Source of the DNA: Nymphaea colorata
Taxonomy: Eukaryota; Streptophyta; Magnoliopsida; Nymphaeales; Nymphaeaceae
DNA length: 64,000 nt
NCBI RefSeq assembly: GCF_008831285.2
Contig: NC_045145.1
Location: forward strand, 20,706,802-20,770,801
Reading direction: 5' to 3'
Shown here: positions 6,396 through 64,000 of the stretch, in pieces
Layout of the letters: every line of letters starts with the position of its first letter
Position numbering within the stretch: position 1 is the first letter of the stretch
Translations under genes and position numbers: made by a program
The notes under the pieces: model-generated
What the model was told of the DNA's origin: nothing
What the model saw: the letters and a program-made list of their open reading frames with translations, nothing else
Databases searched by the model: none

Positions 6396-9300
6396 TCAAA
6401 TTGTGACGCTGTTGGGGATGCCCCTTCCGGTGACCCCCGACTCGGAGCTTGGCGTCATGAGCTCATAAGGAAGCACGCCGGCGCCGCACCGGTTCCGAAG
6501 GTTCGGATCCGAATTCCGGTGCTGGATGACCCGTTCGATCTTCTGGATCTCAGCCGCGAACTTGTAGTACGCCTCGATCATGTCCAGGTCCGCGCTCCAC
6601 GTCGACTGGTGCGGCCGCTGGCCCAGGTACTCCTCGTCCGGCGAGTGCGTCGACAACGTGTCGACGACCGCCATGAACTTGGTCGCCTGGAGCACGCTGG
6701 GAATCGACGTCAGGAAGTAGTTCTCCGGCGACTGGACGAAGTTCCGGTACTCCGGGTCCACTTCCCTCGGCACGAGCCGCCTCATCAGCGGCGGCCGGTT
6801 GGGGACGTATCCATTGTATGGGTACTGGCCGAAGTTGAGGGCGGCGTGCTGGGCTGAGGCGAGCCAGATGAGGATGGTGAGGATAGAGGCAAGGTCCGCC
6901 GGGGTGTTCAGCGTCGGCCACCATTTCTCGCGCCGCTTGTCACGGTGGCCAACGTGCACGGACTCGGCGTACCATGACTGGAGCTCGGCGTCCGACTGGA
7001 CGGTGGCCGCGTCCGGGTAGTAGTAGGACACGTACTCGTTGACCCATGTCTCAATGGCGGACCAGATGAGCAGCCCGTCTGCTGCGTATGGGTAGTCCTC
7101 GATCAACAGCCTAAGCCCATGTGGTTGGCTTGGATCCTCGACGGCCATGCCCCTGCAGCAACGATCAAGCAAATCAGTCTAAAATTTGCCTCCTTTAAAC
7201 CATGAAGCAAACACGCAGAATTACATGATAGAGAGGCAAAAGCTGCTGCTGCTGACCTTCTCAAAAGATCTGCGGGCAGACCCTCTTGATCAAAGCGCCA
7301 AGCCTTGTCGTAGGCCATGGCGCTGATCTCCATACCGTAGGGACCCGGCGTGAAGCAGGACTCGATGACTCCTCCGGCGTTGATGAGGATCTGCCGGGCC
7401 ATTGCGTTGATCTCGAGCGTGTACCTCATGTGGGGATGCAACAGCTTCATTATGGGATGCATGGCGCTAAGCTGCCTGTGTGCTGCCAGTATGAACGGCT
7501 CAACGCAGGCGTGAGTCCGAAGCCTGCATTTCATCAAACAGTTGGCGACGGTAAGTTAACGCGACCAATGACAGCCAATTCTCCTCTCAAGAACAAAAAA
7601 TAAAAGCAAAGCATGGACTTACCAGTGGTTAACAAGTTGGTGAGCGCCGGCATCGTTGGAGCAGACATGGGCCTTAGCCAATTGCCACAGCCAGTGACTG
7701 GTGGCGTCGCTCGCCGGGGTCAGCACTCGCTTCGAGCTGGAACCGGACAGCGTCGGCGGAAGGCTCAGCTCGATGGCAATGGGTTTCAAGGTGCCCAAGG
7801 GCGTGAGGAAGAAGAGAGTGCGAGTGGCGTAGGCTTTCCGGCCATCCTGGCTGTTGATCCGGTCCAGAAACGGCATGTAAATGTCGTGGTAGTCCAGCAT
7901 GAAGAGTTTGTTTTCTTGGAGAGCCTGTTGCACCGACATGCCGTCGAGCTGACCGATGACGTGCTCCTCTCTAATGGCGGATTCAGGGGGGCCATACACT
8001 TCCGGATCAAGCTTGCTAACGGGAGGAAACACCTGAACATCGGAGGCAGTGCTCGTAAATTAGAATGGCGCTGACCTAAATCTTCCGCCGTCAAAAAGAG
8101 ACCATATACATATTGTAACCACGGCGTGCCTTCTCCGTGTCTACGAGAGAGAGGGAGAGATTTTTAACAGCCAATTGCTTGCGAAGTTACTGGGAACATG
8201 TTGTTCCGCACCTTTTAAGGCACGTTTGCTCACACTTTTCGAAAAGTTGAGGTCCCATGTGTAATTGATTCAACTTCCCCACTCATTGATGTGACACTCA
8301 AATTGGCAATTATATATAATGTTGACAATGACTTGGCTTTGCAATTCAATCATTTAATTAAAAATGATAAATGGTTAAGAGAAAAAGAAAATGATGATCA
8401 AAATATCATTTTATGTGTTTTATTTTCTTTTAAGTATCTATTTACTGTAGATGAACAACCTTAGTTAGTCATTTTATTTATCTACCTAATCTTAGTTAGA
8501 TGATTAGATGATTAAGTATGCCAACCATGAGTCATCATCAACTTTATATATATATCTAAGGAAAAGAGGTAGAGAGAGAGCCCTTACATTCAGTTTTTCG
8601 ATACCCACGGGGTTGACGCCGGCTAAGGTCTGACGGGCGAATTCGTCGTCTCGTAGCCATGCATATTTATCAACTGTCGCAATTTAAAACGAACATTAAT
8701 GCATTATCAATGATAAGACAACCATTTAAAAAAAATCCAAGCGTTGGTTGCTTGAGGGAAGGGCGCCATTAAAGACACGGAATGAAGCCGCTGCCCACCA
8801 GTGGGGCTGGAATCTTCACGGAATTAATTCTAAAAGATGAAGGACGGGAACCGTGCTCACCGGAAAGAATACTGGGAGTGTCATATCTCAGGTGGCCCAG
8901 GCTCGATTCTTCGATCTTCTTCACAGGCTTGGGCAGAGGCAGCTTCTTCCATATCTCATCGTGGAGCCCAAACTTGCGGACCAGGCTCTCGCGGTAGAGC
9001 CCTTCTATCTCGAGGAAGCCCTTGAAGTCATGGTTGTCCTTCGAGATGGAGGCCTTGAGTGAAGGTATCAGGTTGTGCAGCACCCCCCTGCGCCTCCACT
9101 CCTTAATCATCTCCTGCTTCATCTCCTCGAAAGCTTCATCCCGCGGCACGTACATTGGATTGGGCTTCTCGATCCTGCTCTCACATGATATATCTGTTGT
9201 AGTTCAGACAGGGGAAGAAGAAAGGAACAGATTAGACGGTCTGATTAACTTAACCATCATAATTTTCATACATTTCTATGGTTCATGGAAGTAAATATGC

Positions 9301-11817
9301 TTGCATTTTCTTTAATTTTCATGCATGTTTACTGATTGGGGTCAAAAGATATACTTAGAAAGAGTTTTATCACTGCTCCTAAGAAGCTTCGGGCCAGGGT
9401 TCCCTTTCCAACTTGTGCCATAGGAAGGATTTTTCTTTTGGTAAAAATGGCTAAAGTAGGAGGACACCGAACCCCACTATCGGAAAGTTGTGTGGTTTAG
9501 TTTCATGCCTCTTACATCCTATGTCATGTCAACCAAGTGGGAAATAATATATTTGGAAATTCCATCTTCTTTGTTAAAGTTCCAAATGAAGCCAATAGTA
9601 ATTTTTGAGGAAAAGAAAAAAGCTTAGTTGGGTTGTTGCAAAAAGAACTGCCAGCTTCAGATTTGAATATAATATCAACGTTGGGATCCGAAAAAATCTT
9701 ATTTACAGCCATCACCGGCAAAGATATTTCCTTGTTTACTTCATCATCCGAGAAACAGAAGATGGCTCGATGATCACCTTATGGTCGAAACCTGACTCAG
9801 TAAAACAAAGATCTATACCCCACAATATTTTAAAATTTGGTTTTGAAGAGTCTTAGTTATCGAGCACAAGGCAAGGCCGTTTTCAATTTTCCAAACATCA
9901 GAGTAAAGATGGGGATCCGAAAGAGAAGTCCAAAAAACTCATTAAAGAAAAGAAAGCTGGGCCCATAAGTGAACCAAATATCGCTGTCATCTTCCTCACA
10001 TAAACTTTTAAAAAAGGAAATTTAAAACCTGACCAGTATCATAGCGACCCAAAACTAATATTATAGTTCTTAAAATAAGGAGGAATTGAGCGCATGCACA
10101 ATAAATATAGCTACATAGTCGACTAAAGTATTCAATCCGTGTGGAATAAGCTTTCCCGCAGCCATCATTTTCTCCTTCCAAGAAGCACGAAACACAAGAA
10201 CACGGGATAAGAAAGAAAAACGGAGAAGATAACTGGAAAAAGAAAGAAACAGATAGGGCATGATACCGACCGGAATCCGTGGGGGGCCTGCCGGTACGGC
10301 ACCTCCTCGGGTATGGAATCTCCTCCCCTCCCAGCGTTGGCCTCTGCATGTTTCTACCTTGATCCGGGTTCCCCAGATCGTTGTAGACGTCGAAGTCGAA
10401 TATCCGATCGGTGAGCTTCCGGGTCCCTGACCCGTCTCCCCTGATCTCCTTCAACTCCTTCTCCCTCAGGTACTTCAGACCTTCTGGAGTCTCCGACGGC
10501 AGATAAGCCTGTCCCCACAAAACAATCGTCAGTCGTCATCACAGATCACTAGCAGAATCCGCATGCATCATGTGGATGTACCATGGGTATGGAAGAAAGG
10601 CATTCTTTTTTTGTTCTTTTTGTTATCATATTCTTAATGGACTACTGTTCAGGACGTAGCTGTGCTTCAATCTAGATCAGCTTCGCCACCATTCATTATT
10701 CATAAACCTTTAAGATGAAAGGCTTTTAAATTCATCTAACAAGTTCATTCAACTTGTAGAATAAATTGGTAGTTGCAGAAAATTAGTACTCTTCGTACTT
10801 CAATGTTGCCGTCGTAATAGGCTTAATGGTAGGGACTGAAAAATTCTGGAATTGCTTGGATTTGAAGCTGGGCAGCTTCAATTTGAAATAAGTAGAAATG
10901 CTCTTTCTGGGAGGCAGATGAAAGACTTTATGCTGGTTGTTCTAGACAGGGACATGTGTAGTGTTTTACAGATGTCAGAAATAGCAGGACAAGACTCTAG
11001 AATCCATGACATGGCACCTGTGGTCTTATGTGGAGAGAGGGTGAGAGGGAGAAAGACTTTTTTAGTGTTTTTTTACCTTGTTGGTGAAAAAAATTCTCTT
11101 CTCCTGATGAACAGTGGTGGACTGAACCCAGGAGTTGCATGTGAAATAGACAGGTCCGCCGATGAACCCTTCGAGCACTATGCTCTCCAAGAAGAACTCC
11201 CTCTGGTGCTGGTTCATCACCGTGATGGCCCCCGGCGTTCCGAAGTCCGACGTCACCTCGAATTCCGCCGTGTACTCCACTTTCTCGGCGTTGACGTTCG
11301 ACTTCTTGAGCCAGTGCTTCAGCGCGCCCTCGTTGCTCCTCTTCGCCGACCTGGTATCTACTCGTCGCCACCACAAAAACAAAATCAAACGCATTAAAAA
11401 TTCGCTCACACTTGAACCAATTAGCCGAAAAGGATCAATGCGGAATCGTCGCGTACTCTGGTCGATTTCGGTACTGACGATCTGGAGGAGAACGTTCTTC
11501 CCCAACCGATCGTAGAGGGCGTCGATATGCTTCCCAATGATGTCCTTGAGGTCCTCCTTGTTCTTTTTCCTGATGGTGACGATGGCCCTCACTTTGAACT
11601 TGACGGCCTTCTCCGCCACCGCGGCCGTCTGCACTCTGTCGCTCACCACCGCCATGGTCGGCCGCAGGCATTTCCTCGTGCGGGCCGCCGGAAGGGGAGA
11701 GCCGGTCCCCAGTCCGAAGGAGACCATCCTCCTCTCTACGATGGAAACCGGAGGGGCACCCACCAAAAATGAGGGCCGCTTCGTGACTTGGCCATCCATT
11801 TTCACGATGGCAGCCAT
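6396..11817 (-). CDS. LOX: Chloroplast-type 13-lipoxygenase, eight exons
   Basis: Exons, in transcription order: 11817-11457, 11357-11077, 10508-10271, 9193-8861, 8673-8588, 8032-7623, 7523-7257, 7152-6396. All introns are GT-AG, the phases agree, and the total is 2,733 nt (910 residues plus stop), usual for plastid type-2 lipoxygenases. A basic, Ser/Pro-rich N terminus of about 60 residues looks like a plastid transit peptide, and a PLAT/LH2 domain follows (about 70-240). The catalytic domain has all five iron ligands: H569 and H574 (HQLVNHWLRTH), H761 and N765 (HAALN), and the terminal I910 (GIPNSVTI). The GPPESA and FARQTLAG blocks are intact. A619, at the Coffa position, predicts an S-hydroperoxide. 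The family adds oxygen to linolenic and linoleic acid and feeds jasmonate synthesis. The 13-position call rests on the transit peptide and overall similarity, so exact regiospecificity is inference. Confidence 0.93.
8033..8587 (-). other. Lipoxygenase intron 5 with an AT-rich insertion-like segment
   Basis: This 555-bp intron is much longer than its neighbours (187, 99 and 104 bp). Most of it, about 8255-8570, is AT-rich with repeated CATTTAATTAAA, TAGATGATTA and GAGTCATCATCA words. The same words and style recur at about 17190-17440, 'CAACCATTTAATTAAGG' and 'TAGATGACTAAG', next to an AT microsatellite. I infer an old miniature transposon insertion, but I could not define clean ends or a target-site duplication. 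Confidence 0.35.
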
Positions 11818-11981
11818 TCTTCCACTCTCTCCTCCAATGGAGTTCCTGCTTTCCTAGTGATGGAAGCAAAGAATTTCTGTTTTCCTAGTGATCGAAGCAA
11901 ACAAGAAGAAGAAGAGGAGGAGGAGGAGAGAAGGCGGGAAGCTGTAGGATCACCTGGATGGCCGATCATCCGTTGTGCTCG

Positions 11982-37386: not shown

Positions 37387-37848
37387 CTAGCTTTTGAGGG
37401 CACCCAAGATTCGGGATGAGGGCGAGGAAGTCGCCTGGCCGTCGGATGGAAGGATGGACGGCACGGAGACCGGCAGCATGGGGGAGGCGAAGTAAGCGTC
37501 CATGAAGAAGCGGGAGTGAGAAGAGTCCATGGCCGCGCCGGCTTCCACGAGGTCGTTGAGGAGGCGGAGGTAGAGGACCTTGAGCTTCTTCACCAAGAGG
37601 GTGGCCCTGCAGCGGAGCCACCCCAGACGGAGCTGCCTGAAGGCCCGGAACAAGAAGCCCCCCCTCCGGCCGCGCCCCCCTAGCCGGATAGTCAGCACCT
37701 TCCTCCTCCTTGGCCTCACCCTCCACGACCCCGACCCCGACGCGAACTGGCGCCTCGCGTAGAAGAGCGTTGGCGGTATCGGCCGGAATATCTCCTGCCT
37801 CCGGCGGTTTCCGGCTGCCGTCAGCTGCTCGTCGCCACCTCCCACCAT
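37387..37848 (-). CDS. Small basic plant-specific protein, unknown function
   Basis: A single-exon frame of 153 residues in a GC-rich block. The N-terminal half is Arg-rich with no signal peptide. The middle carries a basic stretch (RRRKVLTIRLGG, then FLFRAFRQLRLGWLRC). A conserved-looking core follows, KKLKVLYLRLLNDLVEAGA, then a Phe-Ala-x-Pro-x-x-x-Val-Ser motif near residue 125 and a Ser/Pro-rich tail. I recall small uncharacterised plant proteins with the same arrangement (KKLK..Y..L..D..EAG, then FAVPVMGVSF), so I consider it a family member, but no function is known to me. A TATA box lies 80 bp upstream. The start at 37848 is the first ATG after the inferred transcription start. A longer overlapping frame (37319-37918) begins too close to the TATA box and is rejected. 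Confidence 0.7.
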   Translation of the reverse strand: MVGGGDEQLTAAGNRRRQEIFRPIPPTLFYARRQFASGSGSWRVRPRRRKVLTIRLGGRGRRGGFLFRAFRQLRLGWLRCRATLLVKKLKVLYLRLLNDLVEAGAAMDSSHSRFFMDAYFASPMLPVSVPSILPSDGQATSSPSSRILGALKS

Positions 37849-37928
37849 CTTTCCTCAGCGACAGAGAGATGTGGACCGGGGAGTTCAGAAACCCGAGGGA
37901 GAGCAGGGCGCTGGCCACCTGAGCCTTT

Positions 37929-44558: not shown

Positions 44559-47932
<3,374 letters not shown>

Positions 47933-50790: not shown

Positions 50791-53700
50791 ATGGCCAGCG
50801 GTTTCTCCGATAACGATCGCCGGATCCTGGAGGCAGTCGGCGCCGGCGCTTCGGGCCTCTCTTTCATAGGATCGTCTTTCATCGTACTCTGCTACGTCCT
50901 CTTCAAGGAGCTGCGCAAGTTCTCTTTCAAGCTCGTGTTCTTCCTCGCCCTGTCGGTGAGTGCTCGCCACGGTCTCCGTTTTTCCTCGATCCTCTTATGG
51001 ATCTCTCGAACGCCGGATATTTTCATTGTTTTTGTTTCTTTGAACTAGGATATCTGTTTGCTGTCGATCTGCATTCTTCCGTTTTATCCTGCTTCGCTGG
51101 AATTTGACCGTCTAAGTACCTGAGGAGAGAGATCTGTAGTTTGGTAATAGTTTTAGGACTCGAGGTAGCTAAGCAAAACAGCAGGAATTTGGTTACAATT
51201 CTTGTGTATTGTGGGGCAAAGAATTGTTTAAATCAGGTGTAAATTAGTTGTCTTGATGTTTCCCACTTGACATGGGTTCAAGGGGAGTGTAATATGCTTG
51301 TAAAAGAATGTCGATGCATTATATCCATGCGGACCTTGATCCCTTCATATAGGGAAACATTGTCTATTGGTGATGCTATCATAGTCGCGTCTTATTCAGC
51401 TAGACTTACACATGCAGGCAAGTGTTTAGTCTTATTAAAGTTGCACAGGATGGAAGAATTTAGAATGTACAAGCTAGCATGTGTAGATGTTGCTAAATAG
51501 GGAAGGAATCTGGGTCCAACATGTCAAACTTTTTTGGTCATGGATGTATGAGAATGTTATAATAGTTGAAATTGAAAATCACAAAATTTCGAGGTACTAA
51601 TGCTTGCAAGATTCATATAAGATGTGATGCATCTTGTAGCCAATCCATCTGGTTAATATCATTGCATATGCAGATTTGCATTAAAAAAATTTGAGAATTT
51701 TACTTTTTCGTGGGCACATCAAGTTCTTGGAGGTTTCCTATATTTATTCATTACTTTTCTCCTGATCCTTTTTGGTTCGCTCCATCTTGTTAGACACTTG
51801 AAACCATGTTGAATTTCTCTAGAACTGATACCTTGGGAGATCAATACGCTTGTTTTCTTCTATGTAGGCATTGTTGCTCTACTGTTTGCTTAAGACAACA
51901 ATTATGCAACTCTTCATAAGGCTGTCTTTGTCTATTTGTTACCTCACAAACATGCACCATAAAACAGGAAGGCAGATAGAACGTTTCTTGTCACTGACGA
52001 GCCTAAGTTGCCTCTTTGAATGTCAATTTATACTTTTAAAAGAGTGGGAAGCAAAAGTGCTACAAAGCCCACAAAATTATAACCCTATAGAATCCTAAAT
52101 GCATGCAAAATGTGAATCAACAGCAATTCTTAGAATAATAAAAGTCTAGCCAAAGCTGGCTAACTTGTTTGAAAAACACAGTATTTATCAATGATTCAAC
52201 AATACTAGGCCATGTGTTAGTGTATATCATGAAGTACACATCATACTAATATATATCCAATGCAATGGGATATTCACAACATCAGCCAAAATGCTAGACC
52301 AGAGAACAAACTTGCAAGTTCTGCCTTGGATTTTTTTAAAATAGTGATGCAGGTTCTAACATAAATTGGCTTAGGAAAGATAATTCTCATAGTAATTTTT
52401 CCTTTTGTGGTCAATGTGGGCCCAATTTCCATGGTTCACCTACACACACACATACGCAGGCACACACACAGACATACAAATATGAGTAATATTTTGAAAA
52501 TATCATGATATCATGATACATCCACTGTAAAAAACTTTCTTTATATGTAACTTACATGTATATTTACATTTTTTTGTTTCATAATCCAACAACTCCTTTA
52601 CTATTCTGTGCATGTTTTTGTTATGGTAATATAACAAGTTGACATCCTTTACTTTAATGAAGGTTAAACTTAATGGCCTCCGATACCTGGATGTTCTTAA
52701 GTTATTTTTTATCAGATGCATCCTGCACTTAAAATCTAGGTATACTTCCCCTAACATGCCTCCTGCTTTGTCCTTACCATCTTGTCTAGGTGATATAAAT
52801 GGCCATACGTACCTTTTTATGTTGTCCGTTTGATCTCATACTTATGAATTGACGCCGGCGCATATTTCTTTAATCAGTCAATACAGATACTCAATGTTGT
52901 TTTCTTTTGTCTGCTCGTTATGGAAGTTTTCTGACACATGGTGTTCCTGTTGCAGGATATGTTCTGCAGCTTCTTCAACATATTTGGGTATTCTGCTTCC
53001 ATCACTGGGTTAAGAATTAGGAATCCAATTGGAAATCAGAAATCTATTTTATAGAAGAGGTGTTGCATTTATATTCTCCAAATTATCAAGTAAACCTCAA
53101 CCATCAGTATTGTGTTCATATGCACCATAATCATGTTGTGGAACCAGCCTACTTGCCAACTCTCTCTGGGCTAGGAAATTCATATTGACCACCATTACCA
53201 TCACTGTTATATTCCGGCCACCTAATTAAAGTCATTGTCTTTGAAAATCTTCCTATTCTGATGCTGCCTATACATCCTTGTAGTGATGCATAAATACAGG
53301 AGATGCTGAGCTTTTTCTTTTGCTGGTTCAGTGTCATCAACACCTCTGAGTCTTAGTGATTATTATTTCTTCTGAAAAATATTTTTTTACAATCTCAAGT
53401 TTGTAGAATCTCTAAGATTTCTATATTTGTTGGTCATAATAAGATTCTGAATTTGTGAATTTCACATTCAAAACCATCATGTTGCTGTTGCAGGGACCCA
53501 TCAAAAGGATTTCTATGCTATGCACAGGGATACAGCACACATTTCTTTTGTCTTGCATCGTTTCTATGGACCACAACTATTGCATTCACCCTTCATCGTA
53601 CTGTTGTTAGGCATAAAACTGACGTTGAGGATTTGGGTCCTATCTTCCACTTATATGTTTGGGGTGAGCATTCTCTTGCAATCATCTGTAGATCTTTATT

Positions 53701-55316
53701 TGTTGGTGTCATGGGGTTTTCTTGATGGTAAAATTGGATGTTTGTTGGAAAGAACAGGCTGTGGTGTTATGCTCATTGTCTTTTAGTCTTTTTTTGCAAG
53801 TTTTGCTTCTAAGAATCAGAATGTTTTCCCTGTTCATTGCTTTACTAGGTGGCCACTTGTAAGTGTTTGTTGCCCAATTCTTCTTACCTTTTTTCTTTCA
53901 TTTAGTTAGTTAGAAATAGGTTGTCCAGTGGCTTATAGGTGGATTTTATTTTTAATAGAAGGATTATAGAAGATATGGACACCCATTTCAGTGTTGTCTA
54001 CTTCTCTTGTGGAAGATATTTACTTGACTTATCTATAAGACATGGTCTAGAACAATGGCCTAGTTTGGTAGATTTTTTTGTTTCCAGTACTTCTGTGTGT
54101 GTGTGCATGCATACTTATAGTTCCAACTCATGTGCTATTATACTTTGGATGTTTATATGTTAAGTTTTTAACTCTGCTTTACATGTCTTATTTAATATGT
54201 TTTTTGCTTATTGGAATTACGATAGAAGACAAATTTCTGGCAAGCAATGTAACATGAAAACATTGATTATATTGAGGATTTATGTTCCTTTTCCTTTGAT
54301 TAGGTCAGTAGTTTAGTCTTGCTTTTGGGATTTTAGTTTTAGATATTGGAATTGCAGATAAACAATTGACAATTGGGAACCTGTAACATTGAGAAGCATT
54401 GTTATTTATGTTTTAAGTTTTTTTTTGTGCTATATAACTTGTTAACTTTAATTCAGTGTCACAGAAAACATGTTTATTTGACAAAAAAAGTTAAAAACAG
54501 GTCAGCCAAAAAAGAGAGAAAAAAACATGTTCTTTTGAAAAAAATGCCAAAATGAAAAGGCAAGGTTTTTTCATGTTTTTTCCATTTTTTTAATTTTTTC
54601 CATTTCTTTCATGTTTTTTACATTTTTCGGTTAACAGATTTTTATTTTCATGTTTTTCACGTTATTTTTAGGATCTTTCCTTTTTCAATTTTTTTGTTTT
54701 AAACTTATTGAGATTTTCCCAAACAACTTTGGCATATTATACTGGAGAAGAACCTCGTCGTTTAATACCTGAAAATGATATTTATGACAATGCTATTCAA
54801 CTTCATCAAATCTAATATTCCAAACTTTTATTTGTGTTTACCACCAAGTTGCAAAATGTTTAATGTGTTCAAGCTATCATGCATTTTAATTGTTTTATTA
54901 TTGTAAGTTGATGGTTCTAGGTTTTTCACTGAAAAATGCTTTAGCTTCACTATTATTTTTAACAATTAATGTTGCATTTTATTGGTTTCCCTTATTATTA
55001 TTTTTTTTTTATAATTTGGTTTGTGTGGGTGGGTTGGGGGGGAGGGGGTAGTTTGGGTGCTTAATGTGCTTCGTGCCACCTAAGCTCTAGGGTGATCTAA
55101 CTACCTAGGCTTTGCCCAATGCTTTTCTGACTAGACTTTCTACCTCTCTCAAAATTCTGCGGGATGTCGGATGTTGCTGGATGGCAAAAATTTTTGTTGC
55201 TAAACAGCAGTCACTACATTGGCATTATTGACGGTTTATAGTGGCTCTAGTGATGATTCATGGTTCTTTCAGTGACGAATTTTTAAATTATAGCCGTCTG
55301 GCATCTATTGGCGTTG

Positions 55317-55369
<53 letters not shown>

Positions 55370-57711
55370 CTCTCTGTGTGTGTGTGTGTGTCTATATATA
55401 TATATGCTCAAAGAGCCTAGATTTGCCTATGCTCTATTCATTGCCTAGGCTCTGCCTAACATTTTAACCACATAAGGTGTGTCTCTTTTGGCAGGAGATA
55501 TACTTTCTTATTGACATGGTACTTGTTCTGCTTGATTTTAACTTGCTATATATTATCTTTTCCACTTTTCAGGGACTTCACTTGTGATGACTGTTGTACA
55601 GTCAATAGGTAATAATTATGGACAACTAGGTACTTGGTGTTGGACCCAGACAGGACAAACAAGCAAGGCACGTCCAGTATTTGTTGCTATGTAAATTCTT
55701 TCTTATTTCTTAACTCTCATTCGGATACCATCTGGTTTTGAGAATATACACCCGCATTGACCCATCAATTGATCATATTAGGTGACTGATGTTCATGATA
55801 AATAATGTATTGTGGTTTAGTTTGAGTATGAAATTGTGCAACCCTAATCTGTTACAACTTGTACCATAAATTTTCTTTGCTCCATGAATATTTTTCTGTG
55901 AACAGCTTGTTGTTCTGCATGGTTCATGTCCTATTTGTCTATGCTCTCCACTACTGTTCTATAGATTTATTCATAAAATTCCGTGATAGCACACATTTCC
56001 CACATGAGACAAATAAAAAAAGGCAGACAGTAACTGATTACCTTTTTGTAACTTTCTTTTGATTTTTGGTTGTTTTCTCCTTTTTCACCTTCTATTCTAT
56101 TATTCTTAATTAAATATGTGTTATTGTGGAGTAATTGTTGTGGAGCTCCATTATTGTGTGTCTCAGGAACTCAGTTCATTTGTTCTCATGCCATTTATCC
56201 TTCTTTTTCGTAAAGGCTCCTCCATGGTTCTTATTGAATATATTCAAGTAGTTTATGAGGACCTTGTGCTTAAGCTTTTGCACTCTTTCGTTTGCCTACT
56301 TTGGATGTCAGCTGAATGATTTCATGTATAATGCAGGTGGTGCATCTGATGACATTTTATGCACCTCTATGGGGTGCAATTCTTTTCAATGGGTTTACAT
56401 ACTTCCAAGTTATCCGCATGCTGAATAATGCAACTCGTGTAGGTTCATGATTCTGAAAATGCTGAACCTAAAGTTCTTTGTGTTGAAGAAACTTCGCATC
56501 TGTTCCTCCATTTAATTTTTTGGAGAATTTTGAAGGGGTTTGCAGCATAACCTATTTCACTAACAGTTAGTTTTTGAACTTTGTCAGATGGCAGTAGGCA
56601 TGCTGGATGGGACAACTCAATTTGACACAAGGGCAGATACAAAGGTAGTATTTTGTATATGTCTGCTTGCTAAAGGTTCCATTGATCCAAAATACATTTT
56701 GGACTGACATAAAAGCACATTTTGGACCAAAAATGCTGAACCTAAAAAACACATTTGTGACCGTGTTACTTCTAATAAAATACTCTATGGTTCTAGCTCA
56801 TTGAGCACAATTAGTAGAAGTAAGTTTTGGAAAGGGAATTGTGGAAACTTTCTCATTCATAATGTCCAAAAGAAATTGGAGGACAGCAAAAATGGGATGA
56901 ATTTATAGTTTTTTGAGCAAATCCAGCTGGAAAGATTAATCAAGATGGATGCAGTCCAATTGCCAATACGAATCCCATTACTCCTAATCCAATCGTTGAA
57001 CACTTGCTGGGCAGAATCACAAACTGACCGGCTTCTTCAATAATTATTGATGTGATTGTTGTTCACCATAGCAGCAGCCACAAACTTCCAGCAGAAGTAA
57101 ATAACAGCAATAGACTTTCAAACATTAAATTCAGCCAATAGTTGGTGAGCAGAAAACTTCAAGTCAACTTGGAAAACACCTTCCCAAGATGTCTACAGCT
57201 TGGAGAACAGGAGAGAATCTGATTGAACAAAGCCCGAAGCTCTGATACCATGTATACTATACTCCAGTCACCAAAAGAGTCTTCCCACGCGCAAGTGTAT
57301 CGAGAAACAATTCACAATGAAAACTGAATATTATTCATATGAAACAGTCATACAAGCCTGGCTTAAAAAACCATAGCAATTAACCTTAGGTTGATACAAT
57401 ATTTATAGAGGTAAAGAAACTAAAGGGCGACGAAAGCCAACTGTTGGACTGAGTTCCAACGGGTAGAAAACTAGCCGTTGGAACTCTCCAACATCTGGAA
57501 ACACAGAAAAAAGGAAAGAAAAATAAAAACTAGAAAAAGAAAAGAAATATAAAAAAAAGCACAGTACAGTCCTATGTACATAAAACATATGTAAGTACAT
57601 ATGTATACATACAAACACTTAAATACAGTGATGTATGCTGAAACATATGTACATACATATATATATGTACTTACATATAAACTAACAGAAAGTAGGTTCA
57701 ATATAAATCAG

Positions 57712-57745
<34 letters not shown>

Positions 57746-59924
57746 ACTGTGTGTGACTAACCTAAAGTGCATGCTAGATGTCTGACATAACTCTGATCAT
57801 TAAGTCAGGTAATGGTCTTGTTGGATAATTGTTTGGGGTGTGGGCATTCATCTGGTTTCACTTGTGTATCTAATTAGCATCTTGGTCAACTCTATTTTCC
57901 ATGTTTGGGCAGGTCATAAGTTTGTGAATCTTATCCAAAATACACCATCTACCTCCTTGATATACTCATTGATGATAATGCAAAAGGGTTCTTTCTTTCC
58001 GCAGTTGGAAAGGAAACATAGTTGTTTTGTGTATTAAAGCTGTGCAGTTCAGTGTTGCTTTATGTCACATGAGAAACCTTGAAGCTATCTGTGAAAATTG
58101 CTCATATATTACTTTTAATTTCTGTATTTCAGGCATTGAGCAGATGGGGATACTACCCATTGATCTTAATTGGTTCATGGGCCTTTGGAACTATTAATCG
58201 CATTCATGACTTTATTGATCCTAAACATAGAATATTTTGGCTGTCACTTCTTGATGTCGGAATGGCATCCCTCATGGTATGAATCTTATCTGCACAACCT
58301 CTATTTACCGGTAGAAATATTATAGCGATAATCTAGAACGAGAGTTCTTTATTTGCCAGTTTTGCTTTTATGCTATTCTACGCCTAGCGAGAAGGGCATA
58401 TGCAGAAGGACCAGGTATTGGTGACTGTTTATGAGGGAAGAATAAACGCCTGAGGAGTTGGTGCTAAGATCAATTCCATGTCAGTAATTGGTTGTATTGT
58501 TTTCTGTGCAATGTTGAGTGAGTCCTTTCTCTAGTTTAATTCATCCAGAAGCTTACAAACATGAAAAATACTTCTAGCCTTATTGGCTTGACTTTTTTTA
58601 GTTTAAATTTGTGATGTCATGTTAGGATCATTAACCTGCCTATGGTTTAATAGATCAGTCACGTATATCTGCTCACTACTTCACCAATTAGACATTTAAA
58701 ACTTTAAACTAAGACCTTCAGGTTGAAGAAGGCCAAGAGTTCAATACCAGGAGCTCATCTCTGTTGAAACACGAAATAACCTGGGATCTGCTGCCTAACC
58801 CTAACTTGTATATCTAAAGAAGATGTAAAAGTATTTTTTGTTGATTTTTCTTCACCATTACTAACTTATTATTGAAGCTACTTATCTACATATCATGCAT
58901 GTTCCAGGGTTTGTTCAATTCAATTGCATACGGACTTAATGCATCAGTGAGAAGAGCAATACTTGAAAGGCTAGATCAGTAAGTCAGTTTCCTGGAAATG
59001 AATCTAGTTGGATTACTTTTAGCTGTTGGCATTTGTTATGATCTTATGGTAGAACTCTACGTGCTTCATTTACAACTCTTATGTTGTTGCTGCTGCCTAC
59101 TGACTGTCTGTATGCCATACAGATAGTGTATGCCCTTAACATAGAACTTGGATGTGTTATTATGTTGATTCTGAAATGTTTTGTTTTGCATATGCTTATA
59201 TTGGAATGCTTCTATTCATGTAAAATTTACAATATCAGCTGCCTTTTAGTAGCCGTTTAGTAGCCATTTATTTTTTTCATTTCAGGATTTTATACTCGTC
59301 TGAGATGAAATTGGATGTGTTATTATGTTGATTCTGAAATGTTTTGTTTTGCATATGCTTATATTGGAATGCTTCTGTTCATGTAAAATTTACAATATCA
59401 GCTGCCCTTTCGAAGCTGAACAGCTCACATTTGTGAGGCAGTGGTCATGTGGATATTTTAGGTTGCTGTTTGGTGGTTTTCCTGTACTCATGAAAATAGC
59501 AGCATGGGCCCAACATTACGTTAACATGGTTCAGCACACTATTTTGTGCATCTATTCCATAGTTCATGTTCATGTGTGTCTGCATATCATGTGATACTCG
59601 ATATCCATGAAATATGTTGATCCTTGCTCTGACACTCCACTTAGTTATTTAATGTTAGTCCATTTCCTTCCATTTGCTAGGTCACTAATCTAGCTGCATG
59701 ATATATTGCTAAGCTATGACCATCTTGCTGAAGACCTGATATGAAATGTATGTTTTCTGTCTTCATGGGGTGCTAGGGCATTCTTACATATCGTATATAC
59801 TTTTGCAATTTTTTGCAGGTGTTGGCCTGATAGATTCAAGAAATTGCTTTCGGCTAAGATACATCTTAGGGGACAACAGCAGGAGAATGAGTTAGTTCCT
59901 CTAAGAGTTCACAATCAGCCCTAA
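50791..59924 (+). CDS. GCR1: GCR1, seven-transmembrane GPCR-like protein
   Basis: Exons: 50791-50955, 52956-52987, 53494-53663, 55573-55667, 56337-56438, 56588-56644, 58133-58276, 58908-58978, 59819-59924. They total 942 nt, 313 residues (Arabidopsis GCR1 is 326). All introns are GT-AG except intron 4, probably GC-AG. Signature blocks: FIVLCYVLFKELRKFSFKLV, DPSKGFLCYAQGY, FLWTTTIAFTLHRTVV, TDVEDL, FYAPLWGAILFNGFTYFQVI, RWGYYPLILIGSWAFGTINR. Predicted membrane spans lie near residues 20-37, 46-66, 75-95, 113-133, 156-178, 214-231 and 241-263, followed by a short basic tail. The family resembles slime-mould cAMP receptors, sits in the plasma membrane, and binds the G-alpha subunit in Arabidopsis. 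Classical receptor activity in plants is disputed. Introns hold a MITE (intron 3), an LTR fragment (intron 6) and a 96-bp duplication (intron 8). Confidence 0.96.
54454..54792. mobile_element. MITE in GCR1 intron 3, same family as in RBX1
   Basis: Left end CAGTGTCACAGAAAACATG; the complement of the right end is CATTGTCATAAATATCATT. The right half aligns with the RBX1 copy: ATTGAGATTTTCCC / GCCGAGATTTTGTC, CATATTATACTGGAGAAG / CGTATTATACTCGAGAAA, CCTCGTCGTTTAATACC / CCTCGCTGTATAATACC, TTTATGACAATG. The flanking octamers are not a good match, so it is older than the RBX1 copy. Confidence 0.65.
55323..55406. repeat. Compound (CT)n(GT)n(AT)n microsatellite in GCR1 intron 3
   Basis: A CT run of about 50 bases with one interruption, followed by GT and then AT dinucleotides. 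Directly seen. Confidence 0.95.
56900..57720 (-). mobile_element. 5' fragment of an LTR retrotransposon in GCR1 intron 6
   Basis: On the minus strand a primer binding site TGGTATCAGAGC (57250 to 57239) matches initiator-methionine tRNA, as in many Copia elements. It directly follows sequence ending ..GTATACA (LTR edge at 57251). A TATA box CTCTATAAATATTG lies upstream of it, within the presumed LTR (57410 to 57397). Downstream of the primer site is a leader with an ATG near 57068. No gag or polymerase domain and no second LTR are visible, so it is a truncated copy. The far end of the LTR is not defined because it runs into AT/GT repeats at about 57600-57743. Confidence 0.6.
59148..59406. repeat. 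96-bp direct duplication in GCR1 intron 8
   Basis: 59148-59243 and 59311-59406 are identical apart from one base (CTTCTATTC versus CTTCTGTTC), with 67 bp between them. The near-identity implies a recent event or ongoing gene conversion. Non-coding. Confidence 0.93.
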
Positions 59925-61296
59925 GTTCATGGCTTTGTCTTCCACTTGATGATATCATACTGCTTCTCTGCAAGTTTCACTCTTCAAATGGTACTTCAGG
60001 TGTTAAGCTTATAAAAATTTGAGAAGAGTGCTGTAAGCATACCAGAATGCTTTTTGTACCTTATGACATAAAAATGCAGTTCGTTGTTCATTTCATTGTA
60101 AAAGCTCATTTTTTGAGGTTCCAGTATCATGAACGATATATGTTTGCCAGGTCAGAGTGGTATTGTATATCTACACTAGAATTATTCACCACATTCGTTT
60201 CTTTCTGACTCAATTCATGATTGTTAAGATGGTTGTTGGTGATCTTGGGCTACAAAGTCAATGGTTTTCTTTTTGGTCTAATGAAATTCCTAGGATTTGC
60301 TTTGTTTAGTAGCATCATCTAACAAACTGCTGGGTTGAGGTGGCAGTGGAAAGTTCTACACCTATGAGGGCCTGCTGGTGAAAGCTAAGTCTCTGAGTCC
60401 ATCCTCAATTTCCTACTAAAGTTGGCAGTGATTTTATGAGTATGAGTAAATTTCTTAGATAGGTCATTTTGGATGGTGTAGGCCTGATGGTTTGCTCTTC
60501 GAATCATTGCAGCTGTATTTTGATACTTCTTAGGTATAAGTTTGACAGTGTACTGGGGAGTACCTCCTCTTCACTAAAGCCTACCTATCGGTATATGTTG
60601 ACCACCACCCTCATATGTCAGTTCTGGTCCCCATACTGGGTATTGCTGAAAATAGCACTCTGGTGCAGACACTGTCATGACGTTTTAAGGTTTTCAGATT
60701 GAGGATTATGCTCATGAAGTCTTGCTGTTTTCCAACATAAGTCTGCTCCAGGTGTGCTGATGACTGCATGGTTACTTTATAGTTCATAATTCTTTTCACT
60801 TCAATATAGGAAGAAACATAATGCCCGGTGTTGCAGCTCTTGAATTTGAAGACATGCACCAGAGAGAAAGAGTGAAAGAGGGAGCAAGATTAAGTGAGCT
60901 GAGGGATCTGGTTTTGCTGGCCTGATTTTGTACAGGAGTACCGAACCTGCAGCATCACTTTTAGGCACACTTCAGGATTATGAGCAAATTAATAATTCTG
61001 TTGGCAATGCAGTAAGACTTTGTAGTCTTCTTACTAGTCTTAGCTTATATTTTACCTCACATATTTCGTGAACAAAATCATTACTGCTTATCAAGTCAAT
61101 GAAAGATACCAAAATAAATGAATAAATCTCTAGTCCCATGGGAATGTAGTATGAGGATTCCTTAGGCCAATAACTCCAAACTTCAGAATCGGCAATAAGG
61201 CTGGAATCTTACTTAGCACATGGTTCCTTTTGCTTTTAGAAAATCAAGGAAGGATGACAGAGCAGGCACAGGAAAATTGAGAAAAGTAAGTGCCTT
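59925..61296. other. Convergent intergenic region between GCR1 and the Cys-rich gene
   Basis: This 1.37-kb stretch should hold the 3' UTRs of two genes facing each other. I saw no canonical AATAAA in the sense orientation of GCR1. Variants such as ATAAAAAT occur near 60012 and 60067. A frame at 60469-60702 has no family resemblance. No other gene is supported. Confidence 0.5.
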
Positions 61297-62668
61297 CTAG
61301 CATAACCAAGAAGGAAGAAAGCAATTGTTTGTACACTTTGGCCAACACAATAGGCTGGGCCATTTACAGCGTGGCCAACAACATGATGCCTTGGAACAAT
61401 TTGGCCAAGAGCATATGCAGCAACTGCAGTCTGGGACGCAGCAGGAGAGGCATGACAAGCTGCAGTCAGGCAGACAGCAAGAACAGCCTGGTAAACTACA
61501 ATTGCAGCTGGGAGTACAGCAAGAGCAGTCTGGTAAGCTACAATTGCACTTGGGGATACAACACGAGCAATCTGGTAAGCTACAATTACAGCCAGGTGTG
61601 CAACCAGAACAGTTAGGTAAACTGCAACAACACTTGGGAATACAGCAAGAGCAATCTGGAAGACTGCAACAACACTTAGGATAACAGCAAGAGCAATCTG
61701 GAAAACTGCAACGGCACTTGGGAATACAGCAAGAGCAATCTGGAAAACTGCAGCTGCACTTTGGAACACAGCAAGAGCAATCTGGTAAACTGCAACTGCA
61801 CGTGGGCATACAGCAAGAGCAGTCAGCTAAACTGCATTTGCACTTGGGCATACAGCAAGAGCAATCTGGTAAAGTGCAACTGCACTTGGGCATACTGCAA
61901 GAGCAATCTGGTAAACTGCAACTACACTTCGGTGTACAGCAAGAGCAATCTGGTAAACTGCAACTGCACTTGGGCATACAGCAGGAGTAGTCAGCTAAAC
62001 CGCACTTGCACTTGGGCATACAGAAAGAGCAGTCAGGCAACCTGCAACTGCACTTGAGAGTGCAACAGGAACAGTCCGGTAAACTGCAACTGCACTTAGG
62101 CATACAGCAGGAGCAGCCTGGTGATTTGCAACTGCACTTGGGACTGCAACAAGAGTGTTTCGCTAAACTGCAACACTTGGGGATACAAGAGCAAGCCGGT
62201 AAACTGCAATTTTTCAGGGTGCAGCAAGAGCAGTCCGGCTGGCTGCAGTGACACTTGGACTTACAGCGAAAGCAACCTGCCAAACTGCAACCACACTTGG
62301 AAGAGCAGCCTGGTATGCTGCATCTGCATTTATCAGCACCTCTGGAGCAATCTGCTGAACTGCAACCACAGTTGGGAATACAGCAAGAGCAATCCGGTAA
62401 ACTGCAACCGCACTTAGGAATACAAGAGGAGCAAACTGGTAAATTGCGATTCTGATCAGGTTCACAGCAACAGCAATCAGGCAAAGTGCAAGTGCAGTCA
62501 GGGCAAGAGAGACTTGGCAGGGCACATGGATTGCAGGTACAGCAATATGTCACACATTGCCACTTCCGACGCTTTTTTGCATGGCACGAACAACATGGTT
62601 TGGGCAAGCTAAGCTCACAGTTGCTGCTGCTGCAGCACAAGTATGAGAAATTGAAGCAGAAAATTACG
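61297..62668 (-). CDS. Cys-rich C-terminal exon, probable class-C G-protein gamma subunit (partial)
   Basis: The frame runs uninterrupted from a good splice acceptor (TTTTTGTATTGTTTTGCAG, then C at 62668) to TAG at 61297, about 456 codons. No ATG opens it, so it is a last exon and the 5' exons lie to the right. It begins with a short hydrophobic segment, VIFCFNFSYLCC, then a basic KKRRKW patch, then about 24 cysteine-rich units of the form CSCCxPKCSCSLPD (residues 83-398 counted from 62679), roughly 36% Cys, and ends with PSWLC. In class-C G-gamma proteins (AGG3, GS3, DEP1), a G-gamma domain is followed by a CFNLSWICC-like hydrophobic stretch and a very long Cys-rich tail, and no other plant family I know fits. 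The G-gamma core itself is not visible in 62669-64000, so the identity is inference. It could be another Cys-rich protein. Confidence 0.55.
61486..62433 (-). repeat. 42-bp coding minisatellite, about 24 units
   Basis: Each unit is 42 bp and codes 14 residues with cysteines at positions 1, 3, 4, 8 and 10. Most units are full length. Three are shortened by whole codons (11, 13 and 12 residues), so the frame is kept throughout. The right-hand (N-terminal) units are more diverged, and those between about 61490 and 62060 are most alike, as expected from recent expansion of one side of the array. Confidence 0.95.
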
Positions 62669-64000
62669 CTGCAAAACAATACAAAAATAGAAAACGCATT
62701 ATCTTTATTTTCTTTACCTCAATTAGAGCAAAAATGAAATAGTATAAATTATAGAACATCAGAAAGGCATATCCCTCTACAGGGTTATATGATTCCATAC
62801 CTTCCTTACAAATTAATGCTTAAAGTAGTCCAGTAAGCAATAAAGTATACATTGCATGGTGCTCATAACAAAGTTTAAAAGCTTGACAACGAGAGATCAA
62901 AAGAACAGAACATTTCAAGTATAAACATTTCCAGCCACACAAATTGAAGCATCCAGCATAGAAAAACAGCAGACAATTTGAAGCTGATAAATCCAAGCGA
63001 TCTCACTCAATTATCTAAAGCATCAAAAGGGAAGATCTTCAATTAGAGAGGCATTCTTCTGCCCATTCTACTTGACAGAATGGATAACGCATCGAACTTT
63101 CAACACTTCAATCTATCCAAACAAGCATGTAGCCCCTGATTATGTAATGTCGGTGGAAAGGCCAGATTCCGTCAATTATGATAGAATACCTCCTCATTCT
63201 TTTCAACAATGGCAATGCAGTCATTCTTTTCTGGAAGATGGCAGTAAGCAACGACCTGATCCAGGTGAATAGCCATATGGGTGCTTAAAGTCGTGGTTTC
63301 TATGTGCTTCGAAGAACTACGAATCGTTGCACCTTATCTTTAGTGTGTTGATGACTTAAACCACCTGCCTATCTTAAAATTCAGTCCAAAGAAAAGGCTA
63401 TTCTGAACCTGCTCTATGTATCCAAATGACATGCGTAATTGGAACCAGATTCAGAAAGTTGTTTCGTCCTGTTCAGTAATTCCAGCTTAGAACTATTGAC
63501 AGAGAGGAGCTTGAATGCAAGTTCACTTACCTACCCGAGCATACTGATTAAGCAGGGAAGTTGCTTTTTTTTGGGTCATGCAACATGATAGTTTATTCCA
63601 TTTGTTTGGGCAATAGGCACACTAAAAACTTCAACTTAACACAATAGGCAATGCAGGAAACCCGTAACTCAAGAACATCGCAGTGCAACTCTCGCGGGGG
63701 AAATGGGAAAAAAAGAAACAGACGAATGTCATCAACTTCGTTACTAAATTGTTGAAATTTGGCAACTTGATAAAATATGAAATAAGTACGTTTAATAAAA
63801 TTCAAATCTGTAGCAAATGTAAAAAAAATATGGTACCCCAAAATTCTCCAAATCCAACATGATTGAGCTTTCTGAACTCTGCACAGGATCGAAGAGAAAC
63901 GTAAAAATCCCAAATAGAAAGAAGCTCATGTTCGACAAAAATATGAAGAGAGGTGCATACATGGGTAATAGGGGATCTGCATTTTCTCGAACAAAATCAT
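62669..64000. other. Intron or upstream region of the Cys-rich gene
   Basis: I looked on the minus strand for a G-gamma core (an EFxxxPDPLIP-type block, or a coiled coil before it) and found none. The stretch is AT-rich, and the open frames at 63072-63272 and 63593-63913 show no family resemblance. It is most simply a long intron of the Cys-rich gene. Confidence 0.4.

Follow-up and report, generated by a model that had tools for sequence, protein, structure and literature searches.

The stretch of DNA analysed here (the window, 64,000 nucleotides of Nymphaea colorata, G000:C8:20706802-20770801, within a 25-Mb contig) carries a gene for GCR1 and, tail to tail with it, a gene for a G-protein gamma subunit (G-gamma) that is cut by the window edge. 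The sequence was followed past the window end by adding 38.4 kb, and coordinates above 64000 continue the numbering of the window. The positions of the features are collected in Table 1.

Table 1. Genes, exons and intergenic features at the GCR1/G-gamma locus.
Feature	Position	Strand	Evidence or remark
RBX1 gene	44559..47929	+	5 tblastn pieces for an Arabidopsis RBX1 query; Pfam zf-rbx1 E 3.6e-25
GCR1 gene	50791..59924	+	splice search; Pfam Dicty_CAR E 2.1e-11
GCR1 exons 1-5	50791-50955, 52956-52987, 53494-53663, 55573-55667, 56337-56438	+	
GCR1 exons 6-9	56588-56644, 58133-58276, 58908-58978, 59819-59924	+	
Intergenic gap, stop codon to stop codon, 1,372 bp	59925..61296		both gene models
AATAAA-like words in gap	60991, 61113, 61121	+	word search
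AATAAA-like word in gap	60186	-	word search
G-gamma gene	65255-61297	-	
G-gamma exon 1	65255-65094	-	read past window end
G-gamma exon 2	64160-64108	-	read past window end
G-gamma exon 3 (DPLL motif)	64005-63961; window part 63961..64000	-	cut by window edge
G-gamma exon 4, 42 bp	63837..63878	-	GT-AG borders; matches exon 4 of C10 paralogue
G-gamma exon 5, hydrophobic start and Cys-rich tail (456 aa, 142 Cys)	61297..62668	-	

The GCR1 gene is intact, with 9 exons that encode 313 amino acids. The splice search gave 16 open models, of which one was kept for its donor quality and its match to Arabidopsis GCR1; exon 4 of this model probably ends in a GC donor. The predicted protein matches the Pfam families Dicty_CAR (over residues 23-267 of 313, 44 bits, cut-off 21) and 7tm_2 (27.1 bits, cut-off 20.6), which agrees with the gene's initial identification and makes it, on Pfam grounds, a predicted member of the cAMP-receptor-like 7TM family. 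It shares this Pfam family with its counterparts At1g48270 in Arabidopsis and Os06g09930 in rice, whereas their gene neighbours differ from those found here. The genome search detected one clear GCR1 copy, with one weak row (E 0.217) set aside; three weak rows of another search (E 0.06-0.65) were set aside too.

The G-gamma gene model is complete, it contains five exons coding for 557 amino acids, and all four introns are GT-AG, with the acceptor before exon 5 (62668-61297) being TTTTGCAG. Joining exon 3 straight to exon 5 would also keep the frame, yet this was rejected because a paralogue on contig C10 carries a matching exon 4. This paralogue encodes 259 amino acids with a tail of 157, follows the same exon plan and has exons of 162, 53 and 45 bp in common with the gene described here. 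A fragment on contig C2 was considered as a third copy and rejected, as it contains a stop and, beyond the Cys-rich match, shares only about three short weak matches in 59 kb.

The sequence-only reading had proposed that the neighbour of GCR1, 1.37 kb away, is probably a class-C G-gamma subunit, and that the G-gamma exons should be sought on the minus strand beyond 64000. They were found there, so upstream exons devoid of a G-gamma domain, the result that would have refuted the proposal, were not what was obtained; the measured distance between the two stop codons agrees as well. The ADPLLP of exon 3 corresponds to the DPLL motif of the GGL domain. The Pfam G-gamma family matches the protein with E 8.9e-4 and 19.7 bits, under the curated cut-off of 27.1; in the same test on rice sequences DEP1 also remained below the cut-off (16.6 bits) and GS3 reached 27.5. 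A longer piece of the protein gave no Pfam match. Local alignment of the G-gamma part with rice GS3 and DEP1 gave scores of 175 and 129, respectively, while the maxima of 1,000 shuffles each were 52 and 54. A whole-genome Pfam G-gamma search returned no match, and it is uninformative because 14 control genomes gave none either. The neighbour gene carries a GGL domain, including its DPLL motif.

Type-C G-gamma genes are defined by five coding exons with most of the Cys-rich tail in the fifth (PMC3508898), and this is the plan seen here. The cysteine share of the tail, 142/456 or 31.1%, lies inside the 19-38% of type-C extensions. GGL domain and DPLL motif, the five exons, the hydrophobic stretch and the Cys-rich tail are all shared with the type-C or class III proteins (rice DEP1/qPE9-1, GS3 and OsGGC2, Arabidopsis AGG3, soybean group III), to whose AGG3/DEP1/GS3 kind the gene belongs. 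The protein ends in SWLC without a CaaX motif, as do about half of the surveyed type-C proteins (PMC3508898). It differs from the known members in its 456-residue tail, built on a 42-bp tandem repeat in exon 5 (61474-62447, 23.6 copies, 72% matches), and in having GCR1 as its tail-to-tail neighbour. The tail exceeds the 70-350 residues of the published survey, a described range that is termed quite variable and is not a defining limit (PMC3508898). Judged by its predicted protein, the neighbour of GCR1 is thus a type-C G-gamma, a further member of a known family.

Taken by itself, the Cys-rich exon matched no Pfam family, and its single match among solved structures (E 0.5) is uninformative; tandem-repeat exons are, moreover, error-prone. 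One could therefore suspect a misjoin in the assembly, or that the repeat exon is part of some unrelated gene. The latter candidate was rejected on account of the upstream GGL exons, which are in frame and have clean splice sites, and against an artefact of either kind stand the same plan in the C10 paralogue, the N count of 0 over 102,400 bases (window plus extension), and the presence of RBX1 on one side and LOR on the other, as at AGG3. We consider such an artefact next to negligible.

Among the genes recognised in the window, RBX1 lies directly upstream of GCR1, and RBX1 and a LOR gene flank the GCR1/G-gamma pair on either side. LOR is not the next gene, as at least one other gene intervenes. 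In Arabidopsis, AGG3 (At5g20635) is also near RBX1 (AT5G20570) and LOR (AT5G20640), so that RBX1, G-gamma and LOR look like an old neighbourhood, as far as gene order can tell, and GCR1 is the odd one out; among the genomes compared, only here is GCR1 found between RBX1 and G-gamma. The expectation that the two genes are normally unlinked was borne out in so far as published locus numbers, for the gene copies covered, show no linkage in any of five plants, namely Arabidopsis, Brassica rapa, soybean, rice and wheat, none of which is an early-branching angiosperm. A literature search, mostly short of full text, found no report of such linkage. Since the stretch around G-gamma looks old, the pair itself might have been linked in ancestral angiosperms; whole-genome duplication, with each copy then losing one partner, would have separated it in eudicots and grasses. 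This would not imply coupling. However, the pair is unlinked in all five plants, and wheat GCR1 has HAL3 about 7 kb away, whereas HAL3 was not found in the 102 kb read here. We regard ancestral linkage as unlikely, though it deserves more weight than the remaining alternatives.

The AATAAA-like words of Table 1 are the only ones in the gap. With these words in use, the two transcripts would share about 0.8 kb, but in plants words of this kind have little predictive value. Selection might keep the pair if overlapping convergent transcripts coupled the expression of both genes: the order is tail to tail, the gap measures 1,372 bp, and the words cross each other (60991-61121 on the plus strand, 60186 on the minus strand). 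On the other hand, the gap has room for two separate 3' UTRs, the pair is not conserved in the five plants, and GCR1 is absent within 148 kb around the C10 G-gamma copy. We find this explanation very improbable. Equally improbable is its extended version, in which GCR1 and a type-C G-gamma were adjacent in the first flowering plants, with overlapping transcripts coupling their expression, and were kept so here and lost in eudicots and grasses.

If 31,580 genes were distributed at random, GCR1 would lie beside one of 2-5 G-gamma genes with P ~1.3e-4 to 3.2e-4, while P for some two of 10-15 G-protein genes being adjacent would be ~0.3-0.7%. When every pathway is considered in which such a pairing could catch a reader's eye, we infer that a pair of this kind is to be expected. 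The chance of ~1e-4 for exactly this pair was counted against a by-product of rearrangement or retention, as was the transcript overlap that the AATAAA-like words would permit.

The two genes had also been assigned to the same small signalling system. For GCR1 this role is disputed in print. A review sees no compelling grounds for naming GCR1 a GPCR and states that it occurs in species without G-protein components (PMC3718340); a 2025 letter reports a GCR1-GPA1 interaction (PMC11843928), and a barley paper, as far as its available portion goes, mentions GCR1 in the reference list only (PMC11677487). Coupling of GCR1 to G-alpha is disputed as well.

The locus holds two intact conserved genes placed tail to tail, and in our opinion their adjacency most likely arose incidentally, through rearrangement or because the genes were retained, and involves no coupling. 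Judging from their families, G-gamma would use an N-terminal coiled coil to pair with G-beta and would keep the dimer at the membrane through its hydrophobic and Cys-rich portion, and GCR1 would act as a separate membrane protein. The arrangement is real and uncommon, and most likely without functional meaning. An exact gene model is now given for a very long-tailed type-C G-gamma. Should other early-branching angiosperms lack the adjacency of GCR1 and G-gamma, GCR1 is a neighbour by chance; should they have it, this would bear on the argument about GCR1 in G-protein signalling, for which an ancestral coupled pair, if true, would provide indirect genomic support.

The Cys-rich exon lying tail to tail with GCR1, a 7TM receptor-like gene, belongs to a type-C G-gamma gene that is now complete, and the sequence-only reading was right to call this convergent neighbour a probable G-gamma subunit. 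The G-gamma domain could not be seen in that reading since exon 3 straddles the window edge, and 38.4 kb beyond the window end were searched for the missing exons on the minus strand. Part of rice GS3 matched 65192-65094 (tblastn, E 6e-9; positions past 64000 continue the window numbering), and a generic G-gamma stretch gave a single gapped match across 64166-63960 (tblastn, E 8e-4). Exons 2 and 3 individually gave weak tblastn matches to GS3 and DEP1, the latter also from rice (E 0.48 and 4.4). Joined to the Cys-rich exon, these exons form a spliced model with four introns, all GT-AG, that encodes 557 aa without an internal stop.

A published survey characterizes type-C G-gamma proteins by DPLL in a central G-gamma domain, a five-exon gene whose last exon encodes most of the tail, and 19-38% Cys in that tail (PMC3508898). 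All of these are found here, i.e. ADPLLP in the domain, five exons and 142 Cys among the 456 tail residues (31.1%). A Pfam scan of a longer piece gave no match. The window protein matched Pfam G-gamma at E 8.9e-4, and its score of 19.7 bits lies under the cut-off (27.1); DEP1 and GS3, scanned together with it, reached 16.6 and 27.5 bits, so the cut-off fails to separate known members. The alignment scores were 175 against GS3 and 129 against DEP1, as compared to maxima of 52 and 54, respectively, in 1,000 shuffled controls each.

Exon 5 contains a 42-bp tandem repeat (23.6 copies, 72% matches) encoding a 14-aa unit, e.g. CSCSLPDCSCCIPK. The tail is 456 aa long as opposed to 70-350 aa in the survey, which also describes tandem repeats in cotton (PMC3508898), so the long tail represents an extreme of a known tendency. 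The strand opposite the array (61301-62734, plus) has long open stretches, e.g. of 127, 101, 86, 67 and 93 codons, and these are a by-product of the 42-bp unit.

Features of the pair, its neighbourhood and its relatives in the same genome (numbers past 64000 continue the window; G000, N. colorata assembly; C2 and C10, contigs)
Feature	Position	Strand	Remarks
RBX1	44559-47929	plus	upstream of GCR1
G-gamma gene, exons 1-5	65255-65094, 64160-64108, 64005-63961, 63878-63837, 62668-61297	minus	spliced model
TOD1/MUCI70 frame	84206-84682	plus	E 1.1e-58; upstream of G-gamma
LOR gene	~93.3-94.6 kb		Pfam E 2.3e-24; 28 kb upstream of G-gamma
Glycosyl hydrolase family 9 frame	99614-100306	plus	E 9.4e-58; upstream of G-gamma
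Second type-C G-gamma gene	G000:C10:5689991-5672253	minus	259 aa
Cys-rich exon fragment	G000:C2:22980074-22980520		67% identical to part of tail; stop inside

The own-genome searches covered 407.8 Mb in 783 contigs, with the window at G000:C8:20706802-20770801. With the tail as query eight matches were returned: the gene itself, two in the C2 fragment, two in the C10 gene and three weak ones. The exons of the C10 gene measure 162, 53, 45, 45 and 475 bp, versus 162, 53, 45, 42 and 1,372 bp in the window gene; its fourth intron spans 16,340 bp and its tail has 46 Cys in 157 aa. The N-terminal parts agree at 58 of 90 aligned positions, and exon 4 of the C10 gene (HRIWRILR) supports that of the window gene (WIWRILG). 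GCR1, RBX1 and LOR were not found in 148 kb around the C10 gene (reaching 70 kb past its 3' end and 60 kb past its 5' end), and apart from G-gamma this region has only short weak matches in common with the window region. The C2 fragment is probably a dead partial copy; beyond it, the 59 kb read there share only a few short weak matches with the window region.

The identity of GCR1, already recognized from the sequence alone, is confirmed by a complete model from a splice search (nine exons, 313 aa, start at 50791), whose product matches Pfam Dicty_CAR (E 2.1e-11). This model was picked from 16 open ones by its best donors and its agreement with Arabidopsis GCR1. Exon 4 (55573-55667) has two possible ends, a GC donor (GCACGT), which is probably the one used, or a GT donor nine bases further, which would insert three residues in frame. 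Exon 3 (55 aa), searched against the own genome, returned itself and one match at E 0.217.

LOR is a family with many members, and the LOR gene is not the next gene to G-gamma, as the TOD1/MUCI70 frame lies between. In Arabidopsis RBX1 is AT5G20570 (PMC11505812), the type-C gene AGG3 is At5g20635 (PMC3154445, PMC4156303) and a LOR gene is AT5G20640 (PMC8624885). The window G-gamma therefore probably retains an old neighbourhood, with RBX1 and LOR as putative counterparts of the Arabidopsis genes. Elsewhere in the window, a lipoxygenase gene is found on the minus strand (6399-11853), where frame 6399-7178 matches Pfam Lipoxygenase (E 6.5e-108) and frames up to ~11853 resemble, by eye, further lipoxygenase exons. 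A coding-like open frame of 155 aa (37390-37854, minus) matched no Pfam family.

Linkage in other plants was judged from published locus numbers, for rice with DEP1 alone, for wheat with chromosome 7A alone and for soybean with one named GCR1 copy. On this basis GCR1 and type-C G-gamma loci are apart in all five plants compared, in line with the earlier statement that such genes are normally unlinked: Arabidopsis and Brassica rapa (PMC4156303), soybean (GCR1, PMC8438133, PMC8476948; G-gamma, PMC3154445), rice (GCR1 Os06g09930, PMC2530877; DEP1 Os09g26999, PMC6412340) and wheat. The listed neighbours of wheat GCR1 are HAL3, ~7 kb off, and a polygalacturonase, with one intermediate locus number unlisted (PMC10179502); Arabidopsis HAL3B is AT1G48605 (PMC7432721). 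A HAL3 query found nothing in the 102 kb read here. An ancestral but uncoupled linkage of GCR1 and G-gamma is the second-ranked explanation, and we consider it unlikely. HAL3 near GCR1 elsewhere gives GCR1 a different recurrent neighbour, which argues to some extent against an old arrangement with G-gamma.

Between the two stop codons lie 1,372 bp, in agreement with the 1.37 kb noted earlier. With 31,580 water-lily genes (PMC7015852) placed at random, GCR1 would adjoin one of 2-5 G-gamma genes with a probability of 1.3e-4 to 3.2e-4. For some two of 10-15 G-protein genes to be neighbours the probability is 0.3-0.7%. The adjacency is unusual for one named pair and unremarkable across all pathways in which pairs might be noticed. 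The gap contains AATAAA/ATTAAA/AATAAT words at 60991, 61113 and 61121 (plus) and at 60186 (minus); in plants the predictive value of these words is low. If they are used, the transcripts would share ~0.8 kb, and this overlap would speak for the coupled expression suggested in the sequence-only reading. The role of GCR1 as a GPCR is disputed in a review (PMC3718340), and a GCR1-GPA1 interaction is argued for in a 2025 letter (PMC11843928). We find it quite likely that GCR1 and the window G-gamma are two working genes without coupling, and their tail-to-tail arrangement is an uncommon one, probably accidental.
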